This document shows positions 36,017 through 55,112 of a stretch of 64,000 bases of DNA, in pieces; position 1 is the first letter of the stretch; each line of letters opens with the position of its first letter. The translations under genes and the position numbers were made by a program. The notes below the pieces were generated by a model. It ran no database searches, was not told the DNA's origin, and saw only the letters and a program-made list of their open reading frames with translations. Origin of the DNA: Dysgonomonas sp. PF1-14 (lineage in GTDB: Bacteria; Bacteroidota; Bacteroidia; Bacteroidales; Dysgonomonadaceae); contig NZ_JARXWN010000006.1 in the NCBI RefSeq assembly GCF_029892965.1, positions 124,001 to 188,000 of the forward strand, in the 5' to 3' direction.

Positions 36017-37222
36017 TTACATTCTCATGCCGCCTTTCTTTTGTATGTTCGGTCTTATTATCTGTTTAGTTTCCTGATACTTCTGTTTGAACCAATCCAA
36101 TATATTTTGTTCGTTCAGGTTTAACCGTAGTTTATCGGGATTATCCGGTTCTTTTTCTACTTTCAGCTTAACATCCACTGCCTTGAATTTCCGGTTATGT
36201 TCCGGTGAAAAGAAAGAATAGGATTTTGCAATGAGACTTCTGCCCTCAAATAACACCTTGATGTATTCGATGCCCAGACCAATGGCTTTACACAGGTCGG
36301 CAATGCGAAGCTGCTCTTTCACTATCGGGAGCAGTTCGTGTATCCGGTTCAGTTCGTCCTGTGCTTTGTAGGGCTCATAATCTTGTTTAAGCTGTTCGAG
36401 TTTTGATTCCAATAGGGCTTTATCCCTTTCTTTCAGCCGTATCTGTTCATCTATCGAGAGAAACTCGTCCTTTGCCCTGTCCCGATGCTCGTACATATCG
36501 TATACTTTCTTGTGGGCATCCTCGATGCGATATTCTAAAGATTCCACATTCTCCTGTAAGTCTATATTCTTCTGATAAATATCCTTATAAAACTCGATGG
36601 TAGACACATGCCTTGCATCCGATCCCCTGATACCTCTTTCCAATCCGTACTTACTCATCTTCTCGGCATAAGTATCCTGAAAACGCTCCAGATTTGTCCT
36701 TGTCATGACATCATCGGCACAAAGGCGGAGGGTATCTTTCGCTTTTTTTCTGTATTTCTTCTTACCGTTATCCTGTTCCTCTTTCGCTTTTCTTCGCTCG
36801 CCTTGCACTATGGGAACAACCGTCGCATGAATATGGGGAGTTGTTTCGTCCATGTGTAATACGGCTGAAACCACATTGTCTTTTCCGAACTCGTCCTGCA
36901 CCCATTCGACAGAATCTTTGCACCATTGGTCTAACTTCCCTTCTGTCTGTATGCGTTTCATATCTTCGGGACTGCCCGATAACAGGACTTGAAGCGCCCG
37001 TATCTGATTCTTTCCTATTTTTCGTTTTATCCCTGCCGTTTCTATACGGTGCTGAATAGCTTGTGTACGACCGCTTACCCCTTCGGGGAATGTTATCAGC
37101 TCTTTATTCAGATGGCTGCGTGCAGGATCGGCATTGCCCGGCATGACTGTTCTTTCGATATGCGCCGTTGTACGGGCATCGTTTCCTTTCGGTTTTTTGA
37201 TATTTAAAACAACTTTTCCCAT
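36017..37222 (-). CDS. MobV (Pre/Mob) family relaxase
   Basis: Nicks the transfer origin of the element so that a conjugative helper can move it. The 401-residue protein has the Pre/Mob N-terminal nuclease domain: the early motif ARSHLNKELI, and the metal-binding HMDETTPHIHATVVPI (about 122-137) that defines MobV. A basic stretch (QGERRKAKEEQDNGKKKYRK) and a long coiled coil (225-310) follow. It lies downstream of the primase and helicase genes and upstream of cargo. A hairpin-rich segment directly before it is the best transfer-origin candidate. Confidence 0.9.
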   Translation of the reverse strand: MGKVVLNIKKPKGNDARTTAHIERTVMPGNADPARSHLNKELITFPEGVSGRTQAIQHRIETAGIKRKIGKNQIRALQVLLSGSPEDMKRIQTEGKLDQWCKDSVEWVQDEFGKDNVVSAVLHMDETTPHIHATVVPIVQGERRKAKEEQDNGKKKYRKKAKDTLRLCADDVMTRTNLERFQDTYAEKMSKYGLERGIRGSDARHVSTIEFYKDIYQKNIDLQENVESLEYRIEDAHKKVYDMYEHRDRAKDEFLSIDEQIRLKERDKALLESKLEQLKQDYEPYKAQDELNRIHELLPIVKEQLRIADLCKAIGLGIEYIKVLFEGRSLIAKSYSFFSPEHNRKFKAVDVKLKVEKEPDNPDKLRLNLNEQNILDWFKQKYQETKQIIRPNIQKKGGMRM

Positions 37223-37283
37223 TGTGTTTTACTTTAAAATAGTTGATGATTTCCTAAACGCGAATACTTCATTCGCCTGTAAA

Positions 37284-37406
37284 AGCCGCCCGAAGCGGCT
37301 GCGGTCGGAAGGCCGCTCAGGAGGATTCCAAAGGGGGAAAACCTTTGGCTTATTGGGTATTTTTAGTGCCGATTTATCGAAGCGTTAAGAAAATACCCTA
37401 ATAAGC
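37284..37406. other. Candidate transfer origin (oriT) of the mobilizable element
   Basis: Just upstream of the relaxase start lie AGCCGC-CCGAA-GCGGCT (37284-37300), then the imperfect GC hairpin GCGGTC / GGCCGC, then a long inverted repeat GCTTATTGGGTATTTT (37348-37364) with AAAATACCCTAATAAGC (37390-37406) differing by one inserted base. The region is GC-rich compared with its surroundings and has no gene. Position before a MobV gene fits oriT; the nick site is not identified. Confidence 0.5.
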
Positions 37407-37449
37407 TACGGCTTTTCCTGACAAAAGCCCGTTGGCTAGCATCGAGAGT

Positions 37450-38376
37450 CTACATCCTGAAACCTCGCGAAGGTTTTCGTTGTATGGGCTGCTGCCGTAT
37501 TTCCTGCTTCTGCTGTTGTGCATTTTTTATCGAAACCAAATACTCGTTCAGGTCTTTACAAGGGATATAGTTTGCAGACCGGTCATATACGGTTTCGCAT
37601 AGCTTTTTTATTTCTTCGGTGGCTTTTCTTCCCGAATCGTCATTATCCAAATAAGTGTAAATAGCCGGATGTTGTTTTATAAATTCGACGGTTTTGGGCA
37701 TATTAATCACGGAGTTGAGAATGACTACATCCTGCTTTGCGCTCTGGATGTTTTTCAAGGTCAGATAAGACAGATAGTCCATGAAGCCCTCGAATACTAA
37801 ACAGGCTTGGTTATCCGGATCGTTTCGTAATGTCCGAATATCCATAGAGGTGCATCCTTTGAAGGGTTCGCTTCTGAGTACCCATCCTGCCGAGTCATTC
37901 CGGAAGCCGATCGCGAAATAAGGTTTGTAGTTTACCGAATAATGGACCTCTTTACAATGCTCTTTAGCGATATCGATACTTATACATCGCTTCTTCAGAT
38001 AGTCTAATAGAGATAGATTGGACAAAGAACTGACACTTAAAACACTGATCCCTTGAAAAGAAAAAGAGTTTTGCTGTTGTACTGTTGTGCTGTTATGCTG
38101 ATTTACTGACGTACTGTTATATCGCTTCAATTCATCAATGGCTTGTCTCAATGAACAGTTATTTATCCGCATCACTAAGTCTATCATCGTTCCGCCCTCA
38201 TTGGAGCCGAAATCTATCCAAAGATTTTTGTTATAGTCCACTTTCATACTGGCGTTACGATCTTCCCTGAACAGGGAATGATACATGCCGTAATAGCCTC
38301 TGTCTTTTACAGGATGGATGCCTCTGTTTGCCAAATAGCTTTTTATTGAAATTCTGTTTAAGTCTTTAATATCCAT
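37450..38376 (-). CDS. Plasmid-type DNA primase (zinc-finger-like plus TOPRIM)
   Basis: A 308-residue protein that likely primes replication of the excised element. The ATG at 38376 (MDIKDLNRISIKSYLANRGI) was chosen because the preceding 14 codons are lysine-rich and atypical. The CHC2-like domain (YHSLFREDRNASMKVDYN, DFGSNEGGTMIDLVMR) has lost the zinc cysteines; the TOPRIM domain has VFEGFMDYLSY with the catalytic Glu and TYLDNDDSGRKAT with the DxD motif. The C-terminal tail is Gln-rich and basic. It is followed by the relaxase and preceded by an iteron-like array. Confidence 0.82.
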   Translation of the reverse strand: MDIKDLNRISIKSYLANRGIHPVKDRGYYGMYHSLFREDRNASMKVDYNKNLWIDFGSNEGGTMIDLVMRINNCSLRQAIDELKRYNSTSVNQHNSTTVQQQNSFSFQGISVLSVSSLSNLSLLDYLKKRCISIDIAKEHCKEVHYSVNYKPYFAIGFRNDSAGWVLRSEPFKGCTSMDIRTLRNDPDNQACLVFEGFMDYLSYLTLKNIQSAKQDVVILNSVINMPKTVEFIKQHPAIYTYLDNDDSGRKATEEIKKLCETVYDRSANYIPCKDLNEYLVSIKNAQQQKQEIRQQPIQRKPSRGFRM

Positions 38377-38447
38377 GATGATAGTTTTTTTAGATTGTTT
38401 TTTTCTTTCACGGTACATACCGGAGAAAGGCTTGTTATTTTGTCAGA

Positions 38448-38614
38448 TTGTAAGAAAACGAGGCTAAGAGCAATTGATTCAATCGCTTACAGCTATTACA
38501 TTTTTCTTACAGGATTTGAGATTTGTAAGAACTGTTGGTTTGTTAGGTATTTGTAAGTATTTTGTAAGAAATATAAAGTATTGGTTGTTTAATACTTTGA
38601 TACTGTTTCTTACA
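38448..38614. repeat. Iteron-like array TTGTAAGAA (candidate replication origin)
   Basis: TTGTAAGAA at 38448-38456, 38523-38531 and 38562-38570, the variant TTGTAAGTA at 38551-38559, and the inverted TTCTTACA at 38504-38511 and 38607-38614: six copies in 167 bases, in the gap between the helicase and primase genes. Clustered short repeats beside replication genes are typical of a theta-type origin. Confidence 0.6.
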
Positions 38615-38616
38615 TT

Positions 38617-39819
38617 CTAACATTCCGACGTCAATCGTCCTGACAGTTCCTTGCTTATGGTATATATCCTCGATGTCTTTTTCTTTTCAAGGATTTCATC
38701 TTCGTATGTGCTATAATAGGCTATGTAGTAGGTCGGCTCTTCGGGTTTCAGCTTCCACTTGTTTTGCAGTATCTTCTTGACTTGGCTCCTTGCCGCCCTG
38801 ACTTGCCTAAGTTGGAGCATATTCATCATATCCCCGATGTCGAACCGGAAGGTATCAAGCCCTTTTATCTGCATTATGTCCGATATGATGCTCAGCATCT
38901 CGATCTCCACTTTGCTGCGGTTGTACTGTATAATCTGCCGCAGGGCATCGGTAACCAACAGCTCGTACCTGAACCACATCCGGGATTCACTCTTGGTAGA
39001 TAGTTTCCTGTGTTGTAAATGATACAGGAATTGGGGAATCTCCGATTTGAGCAGCTTGAGTATCTGGTTATTCTCTTTTTCCAAAGGGCATACCTTGCGC
39101 ACCCAATAGCGGGTTTCTCCCTGATCGATCAGGATGGGGTTGTTCTCATTATTGGAACAAAGGATAAACTTGGCGAAGAACTCCACTTCGTTGCGGTCTT
39201 TTCCTTTGGCTTCCGCTTTGTAAGAGATGGCCGTACTCAGGTTCTTTATCCGCTCGGAATCTTCCCTGCGGTCTAACAGCACTTCATCGACTGCGACAAT
39301 CAGTTTATTCGCCCAATCGGAATTGAACTGACTGCGGAAATCTTCGTTGGTATTGAAAGTCATATTGCCGGCAAAGATAGCTTTCAGGAAGTTCAGGAAA
39401 GTAGTCTTTCCCGTATTGCGTTCCCTCGATACCAATAGCAGGATCGGAAGCCTTGTCAATGGTTTCAGATAGAGCAATTGCAGGTAGTCCAATCCCAATT
39501 CGATCTGTTCCCCGAAGATATGGCTAAGGAAACTCAAGATAACCGGACATTCTCCGGATTGGGGAGAATAATGAACCGGATCGTATTGGTTCAGAAACTT
39601 ACCGATACTTCGCCGGTAATTGACATGGTCGGGAACGGAGCAAAAGCCATCGAATTTTTCTATTTGTGAGATAAAGTCTTTGGAATGGTCTTGCCGGAGT
39701 GTTTCGTAATTCCACGGACGGCGTTCTTCTATAAAGTCGCCACTCATCAAAGGGCGCAGGACTATCTTATAGAGGCTTGTGCCGACACGAAGGTATTTTT
39801 CTTCTTGTTTTTCTTTCAT
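38617..39819 (-). CDS. SF3-like replicative helicase (primase-helicase family)
   Basis: A 400-residue ATPase of the phage/plasmid D5-like group. The Walker A is SRERNTGKTTFLNFLK (about 146-161) and Walker B LIVAVDEVLLDRRE (about 189-202), followed by sensor-like FILCSNNENNPI and an Arg-rich ETRYWVRKV. An extended C-terminal winged-helix part follows. With the TOPRIM primase next to it, it should drive replication of the circular form. A 198-base gap with an iteron-like array separates the two. Confidence 0.82.
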   Translation of the reverse strand: MKEKQEEKYLRVGTSLYKIVLRPLMSGDFIEERRPWNYETLRQDHSKDFISQIEKFDGFCSVPDHVNYRRSIGKFLNQYDPVHYSPQSGECPVILSFLSHIFGEQIELGLDYLQLLYLKPLTRLPILLLVSRERNTGKTTFLNFLKAIFAGNMTFNTNEDFRSQFNSDWANKLIVAVDEVLLDRREDSERIKNLSTAISYKAEAKGKDRNEVEFFAKFILCSNNENNPILIDQGETRYWVRKVCPLEKENNQILKLLKSEIPQFLYHLQHRKLSTKSESRMWFRYELLVTDALRQIIQYNRSKVEIEMLSIISDIMQIKGLDTFRFDIGDMMNMLQLRQVRAARSQVKKILQNKWKLKPEEPTYYIAYYSTYEDEILEKKKTSRIYTISKELSGRLTSEC

Positions 39820-41193: not shown

Positions 41194-41502
41194 TTATTTG
41201 ACTTTACTTTTATTAGTCTTAGGGTTTTGGCGACAATCTAAAACGGCAACAATATAAATCTTATTTCTATTTGTGTAATAAACTATCTTGAATGTTTTTT
41301 TAACGACTAAAGCCCGGTATTCTTTTTGAAAAAACTTTAGAGCAGGCTCTATTTGTGCCATTTGTGGAAAATCTTTCAATGGCTCAACAGAATCAATCAA
41401 ATCATTATAAAGACGATTCGCCGCACTCGGATTCTTCTCTTCGTAGAATTTGTGAATATCCTCCAAATGCATGACAGCCCGTTTCGTCCAAATTATTTCC
41501 AT
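41194..41502 (-). CDS. RelE/ParE-family toxin
   Basis: A 102-residue toxin of the ParE/RelE superfamily: MEIIWTKRAVMHLEDIHKFY, NPSAANRLYNDLIDSVEPLK, REYRALVVKKTFKIVYY (YRALVV and FKIVYY strands) and IYIVAVLDCRQNPK (the R-Q-NP ending of ParE). It overlaps the antitoxin stop by 10 bases, so the pair is translationally coupled. It likely stabilises the element in the host. Whether it cuts mRNA on ribosomes or blocks gyrase cannot be told. Confidence 0.85.
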   Translation of the reverse strand: MEIIWTKRAVMHLEDIHKFYEEKNPSAANRLYNDLIDSVEPLKDFPQMAQIEPALKFFQKEYRALVVKKTFKIVYYTNRNKIYIVAVLDCRQNPKTNKSKVK

Positions 41503-41735
41503 TCAGGATGTAATTTTTTCATTTCTTCCTGAGTATATACATTCCCTGCCTTTATATCTTGCTCTGACAATTGAAGTTCATTCTCCAATTCTTCCATAGA
41601 GAACTGACATTTTATATTTTTGAGTTCTCTCTTTTTTCTTTTCACATATTTCAAGGCCGACTCCAGTAAATTAGCATCATTATTAATTTCCCGAATCAGT
41701 TCTTTTTCTTTCTGCCGCAATTCTAATGCTGTCAT
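41493..41735 (-). CDS. Antitoxin partner of the ParE-like toxin
   Basis: An 80-residue acidic and helical protein (MTALELRQKEKELIREINND), followed by CQFSMEELENELQLSEQDIK and VYTQEEMKKLHPEW. The length, acidity and 10-base overlap with the toxin gene fit a RelB-type antitoxin. A TATCTTTG box lies 30 bases upstream. It shares its plan with the orphan copy downstream. Confidence 0.75.
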   Translation of the reverse strand: MTALELRQKEKELIREINNDANLLESALKYVKRKKRELKNIKCQFSMEELENELQLSEQDIKAGNVYTQEEMKKLHPEWK

Positions 41736-41834: not shown

Positions 41835-43070
41835 TTATCCATTATCAAAATTTGTCAGCAATTTAGCATTTTTCTCACGTTCTTCCCTTTCAAAGGATGC
41901 TAAATAGTTTTCTGTCGTCTTCAAATCACTATGTCCTAAACTCTCCGAGATATAAGCAATATTTGCACCACTCCGTTTTAACACACTTGCAAACGAGTGG
42001 CGGGCTGTGTATGTACTTATCCCCGATATATTCAAATTGTCCCCTATTTTTTTTAGATGCTTATTTATTCTTCGGGTTACATCCTGAGTCCGTTTCTTTT
42101 GTTCAATGGGTGTTGTGTAGCCGTCAAGAAAAGGAAAAATATAGTTATTCGGATTCTTATCCGGATTCCCCCATTTATCTATAATCTGCTTCATTTCAGG
42201 TGTAACCAAAGCCTCTATTTCTTTTTTCTCTTTTGATGTATGAATTGTTTTAGATCGATAAAAATGAAGTTCGTCTCCATCAATATTCGAATATTTCAAT
42301 TTTAGCAAATCATTGATATTTATGCCATTACATAAGTATGAGAAAAACCATAAATCACGATAATGTTCAGTCGCTTCACTTCCATCCGTATAAGTAATGA
42401 TTTGTTTTATCTGTTGTAGGTTTAAAGCCATTTTCCGACCCTTTCCTATTGGTATCTCATATTTCCCTTTTCCAAAAGGATATTGTGCTTCCTTTACTAT
42501 CCCTACGGATTTAGCTTCGTTAAATATTGCTCTCATACATCGTAAATACATGGAAATAGTGGTATAACTTTTCCCCTCTGAAAGCATTGTTTTTTCATAT
42601 TTTTTCAGCCAGTCTGTTGTTATTGCACCAAAAGTTATTTTTTCTCCGGCATATTTTTCCAAATGTCTAAAGGCACAAGAATATGTCGAAGCATTTCCGA
42701 TTGCTCCGGCCTCGTTTAGAATGGTTATTCTGTTCTGAAAAGCAGCATTCAGAGTGTCATTCACGCATTTTCCTAAACGATTATTGAGGATTTCAAATGA
42801 AAAACTGCCTTCTTCTACGAGTGTACGCACAATGCTTTCTACTTTCTCAAAAGAGTTTTTTATATCCGACCTGATGTCCATCAGCTTGGGACTTTTCGTT
42901 GTAGGCAGAGCAGACCAATCTTCTTCGGACAGTTCTTTTCCTGTGTTATAATAACGTTGAATCCGGTTAAAAACGACCTGAATTTTAACAGGATATAGCC
43001 CTGACTGCTTTTTTCGACGTGCATCTTGAGTTGTTAATATAGATACGCCATCCTTAGAATACTTATACAT
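41835..43070 (-). CDS. Tyrosine-type integrase of the mobilizable element
   Basis: A 411-residue recombinase, reading away from the right repeat. The N-terminal arm-binding region (AKKQSGLYPVKIQVVF) and core domain (110-200) are of the Bacteroidetes integrase type. The catalytic domain has ARHSFAS (Arg357), LGHSD (His380) and the nucleophile Tyr389 in TENYLAS. Two expected residues are replaced: Asn251 in NGININDLL stands where Arg I is usual and Tyr354 where HxxR has His. Such variants are known in CTnDOT-like enzymes. It should mediate insertion into tRNA-Val. Confidence 0.9.
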   Translation of the reverse strand: MYKYSKDGVSILTTQDARRKKQSGLYPVKIQVVFNRIQRYYNTGKELSEEDWSALPTTKSPKLMDIRSDIKNSFEKVESIVRTLVEEGSFSFEILNNRLGKCVNDTLNAAFQNRITILNEAGAIGNASTYSCAFRHLEKYAGEKITFGAITTDWLKKYEKTMLSEGKSYTTISMYLRCMRAIFNEAKSVGIVKEAQYPFGKGKYEIPIGKGRKMALNLQQIKQIITYTDGSEATEHYRDLWFFSYLCNGININDLLKLKYSNIDGDELHFYRSKTIHTSKEKKEIEALVTPEMKQIIDKWGNPDKNPNNYIFPFLDGYTTPIEQKKRTQDVTRRINKHLKKIGDNLNISGISTYTARHSFASVLKRSGANIAYISESLGHSDLKTTENYLASFEREEREKNAKLLTNFDNG

Positions 43071-43247: not shown

Positions 43248-43293
43248 TGCCTTACAAGCAGAGGGTCGGCGGTTCGAATCCGTCAACGCCCAC
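43248..43293. repeat. attR: 46-bp copy of the tRNA-Val 3' end
   Basis: Exact copy of 27837-27882 without the 5' half of the tRNA. It ends the mobilizable element and may also be the left junction of the next element, whose integrase begins 281 bases on. Confidence 0.93.
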
Positions 43294-43474: not shown

Positions 43475-43574
43475 AATTGGATAATAAATATCTCATATTC
43501 CACATGTTGTCATAATTGTGTCTCAGCTTTTCAATAACGAGTTCAATAATTTTGTAATCAAAAAAGAAAAGCTT

Positions 43575-44813
43575 ATGAAACGAAGTACATTCAGAGTTCT
43601 ATTTTATTTAAAAAGTAATTTAAAGAAGAATGGCAATGGTGTCATTATGGGGCGTATTACTGTTGATGGAGAACAAGTGCAATTCAGTACTAAACTGGAG
43701 ATATTGCCTGAGCAATGGAATAAAGCACAGGGAAAAGCTAACGGAACAGGTTTGCGTATTGCCGAGATTAACAGACAATTGGATTTGATAAAGTCAAATA
43801 TAACTGTTTATTACAATCAGCAAATGGCCAGTGTAGGGTATATTACAGCTCATAAACTAAAGAATGTTATTTTAGGTATTGACCATAAGGAGCATACAAT
43901 TATTTCTTATTTTGAGAAATTCAATGCCCAATATAAACTAAAAGTAGGTATAAATACTACATGGACTACTTATACTAAATATGAGTTAACAAAGAATCGT
44001 TTAATAGAATTTCTAAACAAAAAATATAATACAAAAGATATACTCCTTCGTGAATTTACAACTGCTTTATTACAGGAATTCTATCTATTCCTTCGCACAG
44101 AACATGGTTCGGGTAATAATAATGCGATGAAAAACCTCCAGCGCTTGAGAGCTATATTCAAATACATCGCAACAACCGGATATGATGAATTTCGGGATCC
44201 GTATTTAGGATTTAAAATGTCTTTCGAAAAACATTCAAGAGAATATTTAGAAAAAGGGGAGATTGATATCATTTATCACAAAAAATTTCAATCTAAAAGT
44301 TTAGAACGAGTAAGGGATATATTCGTGTTTAGCTGCTATACAGGGCTTTCATACAGCGATATTGTTGATCTCAAAACCGATAATATACGAACTGCTTTTG
44401 ATAACAATTTGTGGATTATGGGGCAGAGACAAAAGACAGGAGTTAAGTTTAATGTCCGGTTGTTGGATATTCCTAAGCAAATTATAGAAAAATATTCAAA
44501 AAATCGGAGTGGAGCTAATCTGCTTCCGTGTATTACTAATCAGAAGATGAATGAATATTTGAAGGAGATAGCCAAGTTATGTAATATCAGTAAAAATATT
44601 ACATTCCATGTTGCTAGACACTCGTTTGCAACCCTCTGTCTTACAGAAGGAGTACCTATCGAAAGCGTATCTAAGATGTTAGGGCACACAGATATCCGAA
44701 CTACACAAATTTATGCCCGAATCATTGACCAAAAACTCAGTAATGATATGGAAGACCTTGCCTTGAAACTGAATAAAAAGGGACAAAATAATCTAAAGGA
44801 AAAGGTTTCGTAA
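43575..44813 (+). CDS. Tyrosine-type integrase of the conjugative element
   Basis: A 412-residue recombinase; the start ATG at 43575 (MKRSTFRVLFYLKSN) follows the form of Bacteroidetes integrases and was preferred over a start 19 codons upstream. Catalytic residues: HVARHSFAT has the HxxR pair, LGHTD the second His and TQIYARI the Tyr nucleophile. Arg I is replaced: TGLSYSDIVDL has Ser where Arg is usual, as in IntDOT of CTnDOT. It reads inward from the left end of the element and is closed by a terminator. Confidence 0.9.
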   Translation: MKRSTFRVLFYLKSNLKKNGNGVIMGRITVDGEQVQFSTKLEILPEQWNKAQGKANGTGLRIAEINRQLDLIKSNITVYYNQQMASVGYITAHKLKNVILGIDHKEHTIISYFEKFNAQYKLKVGINTTWTTYTKYELTKNRLIEFLNKKYNTKDILLREFTTALLQEFYLFLRTEHGSGNNNAMKNLQRLRAIFKYIATTGYDEFRDPYLGFKMSFEKHSREYLEKGEIDIIYHKKFQSKSLERVRDIFVFSCYTGLSYSDIVDLKTDNIRTAFDNNLWIMGQRQKTGVKFNVRLLDIPKQIIEKYSKNRSGANLLPCITNQKMNEYLKEIAKLCNISKNITFHVARHSFATLCLTEGVPIESVSKMLGHTDIRTTQIYARIIDQKLSNDMEDLALKLNKKGQNNLKEKVS

Positions 44814-45066: not shown

Positions 45067-46317
45067 CTATGCTTTTATTTCAATTATCTCATTCAGATTA
45101 GTGGTAAATCGCCGGGATAAATGCTCCTGCCGGATGTTTGCCTTGTAACCGTTTCCCTGAACAGCGACTTTCACGGCTTCCCTGCCGTTCTTTTTGGCTA
45201 TCTCGTCCAATGCCTCATTCAGCCGCTTTTGTTTTTCCCTGTCAATAGGGTCGAACAAATCTGCCGTTGAATATTCCTCCGGTATTATATCTGCTAATAC
45301 TACCCCTGTCCGTTTATATTCCATGTCCGGCATATAGATAGAATCTAAGGCTTTGCGACAATAGCCGATTATTTCCGCTATATCAGCTGTGTAAAATGAT
45401 AAGGGGATAATCTTGGATGGTTTATACACTTCATCCTTGAAACGGTTGGTTTGCAGGAATATATAAACTCCTTTTGTTACAGATTTTTGTTTCCTCAGCT
45501 TACTGACGCATAAGGACGCCAAAGAGGCTATCGCTTCCAACAGATTGTTGTATTCGGTTATAGGTTGTCCGAAACTACGGGAAGTGCATATTTGCTGTTT
45601 ATCCGTTTCAAGGTCATCCTTTCCTATACAGGGTATTCCCTGTAACTCCATCCAGGTGCGCTCCCCGATGACAGACATTTTATGCCTTACCCACGAACGG
45701 CTTTTTTGAGTAAAGTCGTAGGCGGTTTTTATACTGTGGTATTCCAATGTGCGTGCATAATTGCGTCCGATACCCCATACTTCGCCTATTGCTGTTTTTT
45801 GCAGGGCTTTTATCCGTTTTTCTTCCGTGTCGATAATACAAAGCTGTTTGTAACCTTTGTATTTCTTGGCAAAGTGATTGGCAATCTTAGCTAATGTCTT
45901 AGTCGGGGCAACTCCGAGAGATACGGGAATACCCGTGCATTTGGTTGTTGTATCTATGATATGCCTGCTATAAGCATCCAAATCGCTGATGCCCGACAGG
46001 TTCAGGAATGCTTCGTCCACGGAATACTGTTCAAGTTCAGGGACAAGCCCCGATAGGACTGCCATTACCCTTGCCGACATATCGCCGTACAAGGTGAAGT
46101 TGGTGGAATAGACGGCTATATCGTGTTTCTTTACCAAATCCCTAATTTGGAAAAAAGGCACAGCCATTTTTATATCCAATGCTTTGGCTTCGTTGCTGCG
46201 GGCAATAACACATCCGTCATTGTTGCTGAGCACAACGACAGGACGATTGTTCAGCGAGGGATTGAAAACCCGCTCGCAGGAAACAAAAAAGTTATTGCAG
46301 TCGCATAGGGCGTACAT
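45067..46317 (-). CDS. umuC: Y-family DNA polymerase (UmuC-like)
   Basis: A translesion polymerase subunit of 416 residues. The palm motifs are complete: MYALCDCNNFFVSCERVF with Asp6 and the second acidic site SVDEAFL (Asp101-Glu102). YSTNFTLYGDMS and GIPVSLGVAPTKTLAKIANH (helix-hairpin region) follow the UmuC pattern. The C-terminal little finger (TSRSFGQPITEYN) runs to the end. Together with the UmuD-like protease gene it forms a mutagenic repair pair, but a third gene lies between them. Such pairs are frequent cargo of conjugative elements. Confidence 0.92.
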   Translation of the reverse strand: MYALCDCNNFFVSCERVFNPSLNNRPVVVLSNNDGCVIARSNEAKALDIKMAVPFFQIRDLVKKHDIAVYSTNFTLYGDMSARVMAVLSGLVPELEQYSVDEAFLNLSGISDLDAYSRHIIDTTTKCTGIPVSLGVAPTKTLAKIANHFAKKYKGYKQLCIIDTEEKRIKALQKTAIGEVWGIGRNYARTLEYHSIKTAYDFTQKSRSWVRHKMSVIGERTWMELQGIPCIGKDDLETDKQQICTSRSFGQPITEYNNLLEAIASLASLCVSKLRKQKSVTKGVYIFLQTNRFKDEVYKPSKIIPLSFYTADIAEIIGYCRKALDSIYMPDMEYKRTGVVLADIIPEEYSTADLFDPIDREKQKRLNEALDEIAKKNGREAVKVAVQGNGYKANIRQEHLSRRFTTNLNEIIEIKA

Positions 46318-46326
46318 TTTGATTAT

Positions 46327-46998
46327 TTAATAGTTTACAACTTTACCGACATGTATTACACCTGCACTATATGCTGTAGACAAAGAGACAGGTGCACCAT
46401 CCAGATAAAAGGTATTATCCTCATATGTAATATTCCCTCCTGCTATTAATGTATAACGTTCACGGTCGTATAGTATATCTGTATTTTCTTCTGATAGCTC
46501 TACCAATTCTATATATTCAATAATATCCTTATTCTGCATTTCTTTTATAGGAATAGGCGTATTTTGATCTCCGAATCCCATCTTCAATCCACCTCCGGGC
46601 ATGCCGAACCAAGGCATTGCCGTTCCTTGAAAAATACGGACTTCATGTGTAATCCTAAATATCCGTTTATCCATCAATTCGAAAGATGGAGGCAGGGATT
46701 TATTAGGAAAGGGCTCTTCTATTCTCCAAAAGAACATACCTTGATTCTGCCATTCAGGATTATTCAAATCCTCTAAAGTATTTTTATTCCAATAATGCAT
46801 ATATAACTGTCCTATCCAAAGCGGAATTGTCGATGATTCCAGTTTTTGAGATAAATTATCAGATATATCCCTAACAACTTTATATAAGCTATTACTCTTT
46901 TTTTGAACCAGGATATTTTCTCCTTTATTGATGGTATATTTATCTGTTGATGCAGGCTCTTCTTTATTTTTCTTTTTTCCAAACCAGTTTTTAAACAT
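46327..46998 (-). CDS. TNT-domain-like protein between umuD and umuC
   Basis: A 223-residue protein with a basic, Lys-rich N-terminus (MFKNWFGKKKNKEE) and no signal peptide. The central part resembles the tuberculosis necrotizing toxin (TNT) fold: FPNKSLPPSFELMDKRIFRI, THEVRIFQGTAMPWFGMPGGG (117-137) and IPIKEMQNKDIIEYIEL. TNT proteins split NAD. The usual Gln of the GQPGGG motif is Met here, so activity is uncertain; an inactive or altered enzyme is possible. It lies 21 bases after umuD and 9 bases before umuC, hence in the same operon. The TNT assignment is by motif only. Confidence 0.55.
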   Translation of the reverse strand: MFKNWFGKKKNKEEPASTDKYTINKGENILVQKKSNSLYKVVRDISDNLSQKLESSTIPLWIGQLYMHYWNKNTLEDLNNPEWQNQGMFFWRIEEPFPNKSLPPSFELMDKRIFRITHEVRIFQGTAMPWFGMPGGGLKMGFGDQNTPIPIKEMQNKDIIEYIELVELSEENTDILYDRERYTLIAGGNITYEDNTFYLDGAPVSLSTAYSAGVIHVGKVVNY

Positions 46999-47019
46999 TG
47001 AAATACTAAATTAAGGTTT

Positions 47020-47457
47020 TTATCTTTGCTTTTTTATCGAATAAGTTACGATTCCCCAAATGAGGAAATCATTATCTTCGGTAACCTTTATCGGCTGGTA
47101 TTGCTCATTAGCGGGAATCAGCCAAATGACATCTTTCTCTATTTTGATATGCTTGATGGTAAATTCTCCGTCGATATAGCAGACTGCCATATCTCCGTCA
47201 CGGGGATCGAGCGATTTGTCGATAATCAGGATATCTCCGTCATAAATACCGGCATCGATCATGCTGTCGCCTTTTACCCGGCCATAAAATGTAGCGGCGG
47301 GATGTTTTACTAACTCTTTATTCAGGTCGATAGCCAAATCCATGAAGTCCTGAGCGGGAGACGGGAATCCTGCCTTAATGCCTTCGTCCGCTATCGGCAA
47401 TGCCAATTCTATATTGGTTTCGGCCTTGAATATTTCTATGGTAACCGATTTATCCAT
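47020..47457 (-). CDS. umuD: UmuD/LexA-like S24 self-cleaving peptidase
   Basis: A 145-residue partner of UmuC. It has the Ala29-Gly30 cleavage site (KAGFPSPAQD), the catalytic Ser65 in KGDSM and Lys102 in TIKHI, plus the beta segment YGRVKGDSMIDAGIYDGD. There is no HTH, so it is a UmuD-type accessory, not a LexA repressor. A TATTTTTG box at 47463-47470 lies only 6 bases upstream, which would give a very short or leaderless message. Confidence 0.9.
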   Translation of the reverse strand: MDKSVTIEIFKAETNIELALPIADEGIKAGFPSPAQDFMDLAIDLNKELVKHPAATFYGRVKGDSMIDAGIYDGDILIIDKSLDPRDGDMAVCYIDGEFTIKHIKIEKDVIWLIPANEQYQPIKVTEDNDFLIWGIVTYSIKKQR

Positions 47458-47979
47458 ACTTACAAAAATAGGAAATGAATCGGTTAAGAGGGAAACTATT
47501 TTCTTAAATCTTTCGGGTATTATTAAATCCTACGACCCTTTCCTCTACATTCCGTTTTACGTCATTTCGAGAAACAGTCTCGGATAGTGAGCCAAGAGTA
47601 GCTTCTTTCAGGCTACACTTGAGTATTTAACTTTCTACTACTGCTATTGATATGCTGCGATAGCATATATTTCTACTACCCCATTTTCTAACGATGTCTT
47701 TTTCGTTTTTCTCTATAATCATTCCACAACAGGCTGCTGTCAATCCGGTGCTTTGGTCGTTTGTTCATCAGAGCAAAGGTATGATAGTGTTTCACAACGG
47801 CATATCCTGTTGTCCCTCCGGGTTTTCCTAAAAATCTCCACACCTCGCTCATACTTCGCTCAGGTAGTATTTGTTCCGAAAAATATGCCTTATAGTGAAG
47901 CCACAATACCTCGTGTTGCTCTTACGAAACAAAAACGACCGATACCGATGGATGACGCATGAAAAAAAATGTCATAATT
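47458..47979. other. Gene-poor gap between umuD and the membrane protein gene
   Basis: This 520-base stretch has no clearly supported gene. It holds a hairpin ATATGCT-GCGAT-AGCATAT (47650-47668) and the -7 box of umuD at 47463-47470. A minus-strand frame of 72 codons (47688-47906, ending KRKRHR) has no recognisable family and is left uncalled. It is the switch point between the leftward umuDC unit and the rightward PcfJ unit. Confidence 0.5.
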
Positions 47980-52763: not shown

Positions 52764-53747
52764 TTATTTCACTTTTAGTTCGTTAATTTCTTCGGCTCTC
52801 AATAAATCCTCATTCTCAATTACAAAAGATTGGTTTCGGCCTCCGTTTTTCTCAAAAAGTTCGACTACCAACTGCTTGTCGTTGGGTATGGTAATTTTAT
52901 CGATTGTGAACACGGTGCGTTCACTTTTATTACCCCCGACAGACGAAACTAAATTATAAGCCCGAAGCGGATAGATCACCGTTTCCTGAATAGCTGTTTG
53001 CTTCATTACTTTCTTGTCTACTATTTTCATACGCACAAAGTCTACATCGAAAGGCACATTAGATGCGTTTTTGATGGAAGTATGCAGGTAGAGCAAGTTG
53101 TTATGCGAATAGATGCCTTTTAATAGGTATTGTATTCCAAAACGTTTGGAACCGACATGCTTAACTATCCGCTTATCAGTATTGTAGACAGCACGGTTTA
53201 TCAGGTAGACGATGCGGGGCGATTCGCTGCCCAACTCCTTCAGGTAGATGTCCATACTGTTATTGGGCTTATTGACAGAAACACCGTCGTGCATAAAATC
53301 TTTCATCTCGATATTGAGCTTTTCCGGTTCATCGGCGAATTTTACATTGAAAGTGTAATAGCTGCCTTCTTCGGTGATAACCGCCATATTGGTTTCCGTT
53401 TCAAAACTCCGGATAGCAGCCTTTACCCGCAGGATATTCTCCGATGTACCTGCTTTTCCTGCGATGATATTATTCGAACCTAAATCGACATAACGGATAG
53501 CTGCCGGAAAGATGATATGCACGGTCTTCTCGAAAGTAACCTCCAACCCGTATGGCGGAATCATGCGGTCGAATGTGATTTTCTTGGTCAGCCCCTCGTA
53601 ATAGTCTCCATAGGTCGGTTTGAGTACATGTTGCAAGTCTTTCTGCATTTCCTCCGGTGTCTGATTGATAACCGGAATAGTATCCGTCTGGGCATTGGCT
53701 GCGACAGTTATTGCCGCCAGTATTATTAATACAATATATTTTCTCAT
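52764..53747 (-). CDS. traN: TraN (VirB9-like) conjugative transposon protein
   Basis: A 327-residue exported protein. The ATG at 53747 gives a signal peptide (MRKYIVLIILAAITVAANAQ), while the start 8 codons earlier does not. The mature protein has two beta-rich domains, LEVTFEKTVHIIFPAAIRYV being the first strand block typical of VirB9/TraO-type ring proteins; KHVGSKRFGIQYLLKGIYSH and VDFVRMKIVDKKVMKQTAIQ belong to the C-terminal domain. It would form the outer membrane ring with TraM. Confidence 0.88.
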   Translation of the reverse strand: MRKYIVLIILAAITVAANAQTDTIPVINQTPEEMQKDLQHVLKPTYGDYYEGLTKKITFDRMIPPYGLEVTFEKTVHIIFPAAIRYVDLGSNNIIAGKAGTSENILRVKAAIRSFETETNMAVITEEGSYYTFNVKFADEPEKLNIEMKDFMHDGVSVNKPNNSMDIYLKELGSESPRIVYLINRAVYNTDKRIVKHVGSKRFGIQYLLKGIYSHNNLLYLHTSIKNASNVPFDVDFVRMKIVDKKVMKQTAIQETVIYPLRAYNLVSSVGGNKSERTVFTIDKITIPNDKQLVVELFEKNGGRNQSFVIENEDLLRAEEINELKVK

Positions 53748-53819
53748 CGTTTTTTGTTTTAAATTGTTCATTCTTAGCTTTTCATTTTACTTGTTTACTC
53801 GTCTACTTGTAACTCGTAA

Positions 53820-55112
53820 CTATTTAGGCATCAGCATTACCCTATATCCCGATTTGAGCGTTACCTTTACATGCCTTATCTTTTTCTGCATATAAGCCGA
53901 TAAACCCTGTATCGCCCCTTTGGTCAGGTCGGAGGTCAGTTGAGCACCCGTGCTTTCGGTCATGGTAAAGCTCGTGCCGACACTGCTTCCCATATTGGCC
54001 ATGATTTCTTTGGCAGCATTCATTTCCAACGAATCGGGAATATAGATTCCACGCTGCCCGTCTGAGTCGTACACCACCATTTCCACAGGGATAATTGTCC
54101 CCTCGTACTTGATAGAGGAAATCTGAATCTCCATTCGTTCTCCCTGCACTTTTGCAAGGCCTGTTACAATGGTGTTTTCGGGGATAAGAGTAGTTCCTGC
54201 CATGAGTGGCTCGGTCAGGCGCAGACGGGTGGTTTGTCCGTCTACCACAGTCTGGTCATCATGAACGATTGCGGCAATCGTATTTTTCTCCGATACCCCG
54301 ACTGTCCCACCCTCCGTATTAAAGCTGATGTTTCTCGGCTGATCATACATTTGGTAATACTCATCGCCACCTATGGACTGTGCTAATGCAGATACCGTCT
54401 GGTTTTGTATCTGCCGGATAGGAGTAATTTTAGTCTTGTTGTTACTATTGCTGCTACTACTTTTCAACGAACCGTTGGAAATGCGCTTGCTCAGACTTTC
54501 GTTACTGTTGTCCTGCTGGGTTTGTGGCATATACTTAGCAGCCATCTGGTAGGACTTTTCCATCAGCTCCAACTGCTCATCCATCGCCGATTGCTTGCTG
54601 TCCTTTTCGTTCATTTTGGCTTCCAGTTCCTCCAGCCGTTTCTTCATCTCTTCCTTTTCGGGATCGGATTTCGGCTGTTCATAGAAAGTACCCAGTGTGC
54701 GATTGATGTCCCGATAGGCGGAAACTGAACTGCCGATAGGCTCTTTCTCCTTTTCAGGAATTTCCACGTCTGTCGCGGGATCATCGGGGATAACAATGTT
54801 TACTTTGTCTGTACCGGATTCGTTTTCCAGCATACTTATATATCCCTGAAGGGATTGCATTCTGTCCTTTTGCTTATTCTGCATCTGTTCCTTTTCATAG
54901 GCGTCTTTCTTGTCGCCGATAATCTCGTCTTTGCCCGGATCGGGTATGTCGGCATTGAAGCCGATACCCTCCTGTAGCTTTATTTTGTCTGCATCCGATG
55001 GCTTAAATATCAGCCATATGCACCCCACACAGATAATTGCCATCAGGGCAAAAACAGCATATTTTTTAAGCTTTTGCTTTTGCTCCGAAGATATTTTCAG
55101 TCGTTCGTTCAT
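53820..55112 (-). CDS. traM: TraM (VirB10-like) conjugative transposon protein
   Basis: A 430-residue inner membrane protein that spans the periplasm. The N-terminal cytoplasmic piece is followed by a transmembrane helix (about 18-37), a Lys/Glu-rich periplasmic region with a coiled coil (165-190), an Asn/Ser-rich linker (NGSLKSSSSNSNNKTK), and the C-terminal VirB10-like beta domain (LRLTEPLMAGTTLIPENTIV to the end). TraM overlaps traL by 47 bases, an unusually long overlap. Confidence 0.88.
   Translation of the reverse strand: MNERLKISSEQKQKLKKYAVFALMAIICVGCIWLIFKPSDADKIKLQEGIGFNADIPDPGKDEIIGDKKDAYEKEQMQNKQKDRMQSLQGYISMLENESGTDKVNIVIPDDPATDVEIPEKEKEPIGSSVSAYRDINRTLGTFYEQPKSDPEKEEMKKRLEELEAKMNEKDSKQSAMDEQLELMEKSYQMAAKYMPQTQQDNSNESLSKRISNGSLKSSSSNSNNKTKITPIRQIQNQTVSALAQSIGGDEYYQMYDQPRNISFNTEGGTVGVSEKNTIAAIVHDDQTVVDGQTTRLRLTEPLMAGTTLIPENTIVTGLAKVQGERMEIQISSIKYEGTIIPVEMVVYDSDGQRGIYIPDSLEMNAAKEIMANMGSSVGTSFTMTESTGAQLTSDLTKGAIQGLSAYMQKKIRHVKVTLKSGYRVMLMPK

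Follow-up and report, generated by a model that had tools for sequence, protein, structure and literature searches.

The TNT domains of Pfam family PF14021, among them that of Mycobacterium tuberculosis (Mtb) CpnT and the fungal AfNADase, are NAD(P) glycohydrolases (NADases), with Tse6 and Tne2 as more distant relatives of the same fold. Mutation of Q194 is reported to inactivate AfNADase, Q194K being among the mutants described as assayed (PMC7955114), and a Phe727 mutant of Mtb TNT is reported to have lost activity, Gln822 and Tyr765 being described as important but not essential (PMC6398120). The umuDC genes of mobile elements have been described separately: ICEPan islands are reported to be integrated into umuC, with recent exchange and a suggested link to stress (PMC4458695); umuC is described as an integration hotspot for tmexCD-toprJ units (PMC10654056); and umuCD is described as bordering anti-defence islands in the leading regions of plasmids (PMC11541004). 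Here we analyse a stretch of 64,000 nucleotides from Dysgonomonas sp. PF1-14 (contig NZ_JARXWN010000006.1, positions 124,001 to 188,000; hereafter the window), in which a presumed integrative and conjugative element (ICE) carries a TNT-like gene between umuD and umuC. The feature is real and recurrent: a TNT-fold protein whose active site has been replaced is an interchangeable cargo of the umuDC module in one ICE lineage.

The TNT-like gene is an open reading frame (ORF) of 223 amino acids with an ATG start, and it contains the segment HEVRIFQGTAMPWFGMPGGG. A first-pass annotation, made from the letters of the DNA, had placed it between umuD and umuC, 21 bases from the one and 9 bases from the other, and this placement was confirmed (46999–47019 towards umuD and 46318–46326 towards umuC). 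All three genes are co-oriented:

47020–47457, minus strand: umuD-like S24 autoprotease, first gene of the presumed operon (NF007621, 162 bits against a cut-off of 110; PF00717)
46327–46998, minus strand: TNT-fold stand-alone protein of 223 amino acids (PF14021, 40.3 bits; AlphaFold2 model; fold matches to TNT, Tne2 and Tse6)
45067–46317, minus strand: umuC-like Y-family polymerase, third gene of the presumed operon (PF00817, PF11799, PF13438)

The umuD product matches both Peptidase_S24 and the polymerase V subunit UmuD model NF007621 above their cut-offs. The umuC product matches IMS, IMS_C and DUF4113, and its score of 368 with the UmuC model NF002955 lies below the cut-off of 431.

A TNT fold with a replaced active site

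The TNT fold proposed in the first-pass annotation is borne out. The protein matches the PF14021 profile with E = 4.6e-10, well above the Pfam cut-off (40.3 bits against 27), and a fold search ranks the TNT, Tne2 and Tse6 NADases at the top; given that profile score, fold search and profile alignment agree, a chance resemblance was rejected. The AlphaFold2 model has a mean predicted local distance difference test (pLDDT) score of 80 and a predicted template modelling (pTM) score of 0.72. Residues 1–37 are of low confidence (pLDDT < 50), the TNT core, over which the fold is shared with the NADases, spans residues ~60–165, and an extra C-terminal piece spans ~168–223. On predicted secondary structure, these C-terminal ~55 residues (46327–46503, minus strand) appear to repeat the strand-helix-strand unit that ends the core.

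Only ~60 residues precede the core; no delivery or trafficking domain was found among them, no second Pfam domain scores above its cut-off, and the protein has no PADLOC, PHROG or NCBIfam match. It is thus unlike TNT toxins in being stand-alone, in having the extra C-terminal piece and in lacking both a delivery domain and a recognised linked immunity gene. Its neighbours at all three ICE loci that carry it are umuD and umuC, although an immunity gene might lie at a distance.

To compare active sites, we used an alignment of 20 family members, all of which match PF14021 at E <= 0.01, although some may score under the Pfam cut-off (for example G125, 25.1 bits). Of the 17 genomes matched in the other genus described below, G573, which is long, divergent and without the PWFG loop, and G499, which has an internal stop, were left out of the alignment, and G258, a canonical TNT domain within a long ORF, was set apart from the family. 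The PWFGxPGGG loop and the (K/R)SLP segment are common to the window protein and the TNT NADases. In a phmmer alignment with AfNADase, numbered consistently with the residues given in PMC7955114, F137 pairs with F89, R148 with K100, Q188 with M133 and Q194 with K139. When six Bacteroidota TNT domains are profile-aligned with the family, H68 takes the position of the arginine R129, and the structure alignments agree at their ends. The first-pass annotation had taken the Gln of GQPGGG, which is Met in this protein, for the key catalytic residue; this proved mistaken, as Met133 faces Q188 and it is K139 that faces the catalytic Q194.

The catalytic set of TNT NADases, Arg (R129/R757), Arg (R148/R780) and Gln (Q194/Q822), is replaced throughout the family by H68, K100 and K139, each present in 20/20 members, so that the canonical R-F-Q becomes H68-F/Y-K139. 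The aromatic at the F137 position is kept in most members (F in 8, Y in 11, H in 1), M133 is found in 19/20, and Y69, W83, F90, W91 and S101 are likewise invariant. We compared these positions by eye with eight TNT domains, six of which were aligned (L162 and L009 left out) and two of which, L009 and L164, score below the Pfam cut-off. The Gln is present in 8/8, the Asp-Arg pair in 7/8, the Arg of RAL in 7/8 and an aromatic-PP motif upstream of the core in 6/8; the last of these is absent from the family alignment. The residue at the Q188-type position is not constant in the comparison domains.

Given the replaced active-site residues and the missing aromatic-PP motif, canonical NADase activity is unlikely in this family. 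The strict conservation of the replacing residues argues for function, not decay, and we read the protein as an NADase fold that has been retired or repurposed rather than as a toxin. The first-pass suggestion of an inactive or immunity-like derivative therefore stands in its first part, and its second part finds no match to any immunity family. The same replacements, shared by 20/20 members, mean that the label of a Persicobacter homologue, 'glycohydrolase toxin TNT-related protein', is probably wrong as to toxin.

A slot for single genes between umuD and umuC

The first-pass annotation had allowed that the gene might be found only here, by chance insertion. That the gene is unique to the window was rejected, as it recurs between umuD and umuC at three loci in two genomes, all of one ICE lineage. 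Another contig of the PF1-14 genome carries a second, intact umuD-TNT-umuC arrangement, in an element 91–93% identical to that of the window over two long stretches, and Dysgonomonas sp. 521 has a third intact locus. Across the family Dysgonomonadaceae, 2 of 101 genomes have the TNT-like gene.

Other genes occupy the same junction in related elements. Our survey covered 70 umuC loci, a subset of the umuC places listed. An upstream umuD was found at 60 and none at 10. The gap between the two genes is shorter than 100 bases in 46 pairs, longer and without an ORF in 4, and occupied by an ORF in 10. Eight of these ten are the loci of the Dysgonomonas ICE type, defined by a umuC at least 70% identical; all eight such loci listed were included, and 8/8 have an ORF in the gap. 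The TNT-like gene is the cargo at 3/8. A 245-amino-acid protein is found at another 3/8 (the one copy searched against Pfam scores above the cut-off for DUF559 and below that for the MTES_1575 nuclease model), a 110-amino-acid ORF, membrane-like by eye and without a Pfam match, at 1/8, and an ATPase with two ABC domains, labelled ABC-F (L146:1856-3445, in another genome of the genus), at 1/8. Among the other 52 umuD-umuC loci two hold an ORF, NUDIX-like and VanZ-like as judged by eye from sequence only. Inserts follow the direction of the operon, some overlapping the umuD stop or the umuC start by a few bases; each is one ORF between an intact umuD and an intact umuC, with no recombinase in the insert. 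No insert is present in a third umuDC of the PF1-14 genome, nor in the umuDC of three Bacteroidota plasmid records (of seven).

The insert is younger than its flanks. Between the window and the second PF1-14 copy, 6 of 672 bases differ in the TNT-like gene, compared with 24 of 438 in umuD and 75 of 1251 in umuC; between the window and Dysgonomonas sp. 521 the corresponding counts are 4 of 672, 35 of 438 and 66 of 1251. Across the three copies the TNT-like gene differs at 2–6 of 672 bases while umuD and umuC differ by 5–8%, which indicates that the insert was moved or exchanged recently. In a sliding comparison over the ~13.7 kb of ICE shared by the window and the second copy (median difference 7.1%), the lowest value, 0.7%, falls on a block around the insert, with other low segments, near 1.5%, at 56–57 kb:

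46289–47058, minus strand: low-divergence block between the window and the second copy, a possible unit of exchange, comprising the insert, 39 bases of the umuD tail and 29 bases of the umuC head (difference list and sliding comparison)

The umuC of the copy with the 110-amino-acid cargo is 94.6% identical to that of the window, and those of the other two TNT carriers are 94.0 and 94.7% identical. The corresponding umuD identities are 90.2% for the 110-amino-acid-cargo copy and 94.5 and 92.0% for the TNT carriers, and in the umuD tree the 110-amino-acid-cargo copy stands apart from the three TNT carriers (support 0.98). From this pattern we infer exchange via flanking homology as the simplest route for the insert, and umuD may partly have travelled along with it.

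Variable cargo at the umuDC of ICEs, with recent horizontal exchange and expression proposed to be tied to stress, is a trait shared with the ICEPan umuDC islands and the umuC hotspot as described (PMC4458695, PMC10654056), and, as in the ICEPan islands, the insert in the window has been exchanged more recently than its flanks. The published examples are islands of 11–14 kb or tmexCD-toprJ units, with recombinases, inside umuC, whereas here single genes lie between an intact umuD and umuC, and it is in this that the inserts differ from the umuC-integrated islands. Similarly, the anti-defence islands group the umuDC of conjugative elements with variable accessory genes (PMC11541004), but the accessory gene of the window lies between umuD and umuC and its protein has no PADLOC match. 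Searches of open-licence PMC papers turned up no account of the TNT-like family or of a clean umuD–umuC slot. In the slot, the exchange of single-gene cargo within a gene pair of a mobile element takes a simple and testable form, and a mutagenic polymerase is joined to accessory genes that differ between elements.

Relatives and possible roles

Outside the Dysgonomonas ICE loci, full-length relatives are found at 33–40% identity. An alignment-based search of 299 genomes from one other genus matched 17 of them, 15 with an open full-length frame; one more genome of that genus and a Persicobacter plasmid protein provided further relatives. The resulting 17 relatives, 16 in that genus and one in Persicobacter, are all stand-alone, and none lies beside umuDC. 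One has a weak PADLOC match (PDC-M04B, E 0.013). No virus-borne relative appeared in single-sequence and alignment scans of viral contigs or in tblastn of phage records, and nothing in a viral fold library matched with E < 0.4. A long divergent member, L047:7648-9039, is hydrophobic in an N-terminal region, has an additional region at the C-terminus and is without the PWFG loop.

One clade of relatives occupies a single chromosomal place in 11/11 cases, between a 479-amino-acid membrane protein, which it follows, and a lipoprotein-like ORF of ~245 amino acids; Pfam, run at one such locus, identifies the former as a Gate-domain protein and gives no match for the latter. The same neighbourhood (L030:838-10217) includes genes for an AlkZ-like glycosylase and a PolB-type exonuclease (11/11), a DinB-type polymerase (seen in 10 of 11) and an O6-methylguanine methyltransferase (seen in 9 of 11), identified by sequence start, with Pfam on one locus. 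Among 20 control genomes of that genus without the TNT-like gene, 15 have the Gate gene, with a TNT-like match nearby in 0/15 loci and, in one, the two flanking genes just 22 bases apart. The TNT-like gene is therefore optional at this place, some parts of the repair neighbourhood being present where it is missing.

With moderate confidence, we propose that the replaced-active-site TNT fold is an interchangeable ICE cargo that probably acts by binding rather than by destroying NAD and that has probably spread by homologous recombination. The protein would be cytosolic and stand-alone, with its NAD glycohydrolase active site replaced as a set, and its gene would be one of several swappable single-gene cargoes of the umuD–umuC slot in the Dysgonomonas ICE lineage, probably translated from one umuD-TNT-umuC message. 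The protein's work would likely be the binding of an NAD- or ADP-ribose-like ligand or of a protein partner, and the gene likely moved by homologous recombination, with the umuD tail and the umuC head as the regions of homology. The fold, the replaced residues, the slot and the low divergence of the insert are observed; co-transcription, the loss of NADase activity, binding and the route of recombination are inferred. In a bolder version, which we consider highly improbable, the fold would bind an NAD/ADP-ribose-type signal, the ICE would make polymerase V together with protection from the recipient's NAD-based defences on entry, and the junction would be a plug-in slot for such helpers.

A role in immunity or as a decoy, in which a dead toxin fold takes up the partner or the substrate of NADase or ADP-ribosylating effectors and so shields the cell or the incoming element from them, is unlikely but deserves the first hearing. 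In its favour, the protein is small and stand-alone and keeps the fold with the catalytic residues lost, and the five members of the other clade lie in differing neighbourhoods, with Sir2 and Fic genes once each. Against it, the only PF14021 matches in the PF1-14 genome are the two copies themselves, so that no resident TNT toxin was found to pair with; the 11 members of the first clade stand beside the Gate-domain protein and the lipoprotein-like ORF, not beside recognised toxins; and no immunity family is matched.

We think it quite unlikely that the gene is a neutral passenger, doing nothing for the element at a junction that tolerates inserts. The few differences among the three copies (2–4 amino-acid changes) are too few to gauge selection in the ICE lineage, and the gene's optional presence at the chromosomal place fits a passenger too. 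However, the ORF is intact at 3/3 loci, and its relatives are under purifying selection, with ratios of nonsynonymous to synonymous substitution (dN/dS) of 0.04–0.25 among pairs of usable divergence (29/65 pairs).

An active enzyme with changed chemistry, in which His68, Lys100 and Lys139 form a new NAD-dependent site, for example that of a transferase acting during repair, is in our judgement very unlikely. The eight positions invariant in 20/20 members (H68, Y69, W83, F90, W91, K100, S101 and K139) do not look like decay, and one class of ADP-ribosyltransferases, described as using an H-Y-E motif (PMC7955114), offers a parallel for His in place of the Arg. The mutants cited above weigh the other way: loss of Q194, with Q194K in the assayed set, is reported to inactivate AfNADase (PMC7955114), and the aromatic-PP motif that the family lacks includes the Phe727 reported as essential in TNT (PMC6398120). 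That the protein is instead an accessory of repair, with UmuD/UmuC as its partners in the ICE and Y-family polymerases or further DNA repair enzymes more generally, would suit its place between umuD and umuC and the repair genes around one clade, but is scarcely probable, since related umuDC copies have unrelated genes in its stead, the chromosomal neighbourhood occurs without it at 15/15 Gate-gene loci of the control genomes, and the DinB gene there is three genes off on the opposite strand.

Transcription and neighbouring genes

In the window a TAnnTTTG element (TATTTTTG, 47463–47470, minus strand), which we take to be the Bacteroidota −7 promoter element, starts 13 bases ahead of umuD; across 8/8 ICE-type loci the motif starts 13–14 bases ahead of this gene. 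Neither the 142 bases preceding the TNT-like gene of the window nor the 103 bases preceding its umuC yielded the motif, a distribution that fits a single umuD-TNT-umuC transcript. The damage-induced expression suggested by the first-pass annotation is unsupported as LexA-type induction, because the LexA DNA-binding domain PF01726 has 0 matches in the PF1-14 genome; it is found in 2 of 25 genomes of the genus and in 10 of 14 control genomes (9 over the cut-off). Searching upstream of umuD for an operator palindrome gave only one imperfect 12-nucleotide and one 6-nucleotide inverted repeat, neither convincing.

The umuDC module adjoins a tyrosine recombinase and lies near two conjugation genes, and is therefore taken as part of a Bacteroidota conjugative transposon:

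43518–44813, plus strand: tyrosine recombinase adjoining the umuDC module, presumed ICE integrase (XerD/XerC-type matches, all below cut-offs)
52764–53771, minus strand: conjugative transposon gene TraN (TIGR03780, 362 bits, above cut-off)
53820–55112, minus strand: conjugative transposon gene TraM (TIGR03779, 465 bits, above cut-off)

Back to back with the ICE are a second tyrosine recombinase (41835–43070, minus strand) and ORFs judged from their translations to be relaxase-like and primase/helicase-like (36017–39819, minus strand), an arrangement that looks like a single region of insertion used by two mobile elements. Between the two recombinase genes, a 46-base stretch (43248–43293) matches eight plasmid records from six genera and resembles part of a tRNA; ARAGORN called no tRNA there, and the stretch may be the attachment site. 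Two small overlapping ORFs at 41194–41735 (minus strand) resemble, by eye only, a RelE/ParE-type toxin-antitoxin pair.
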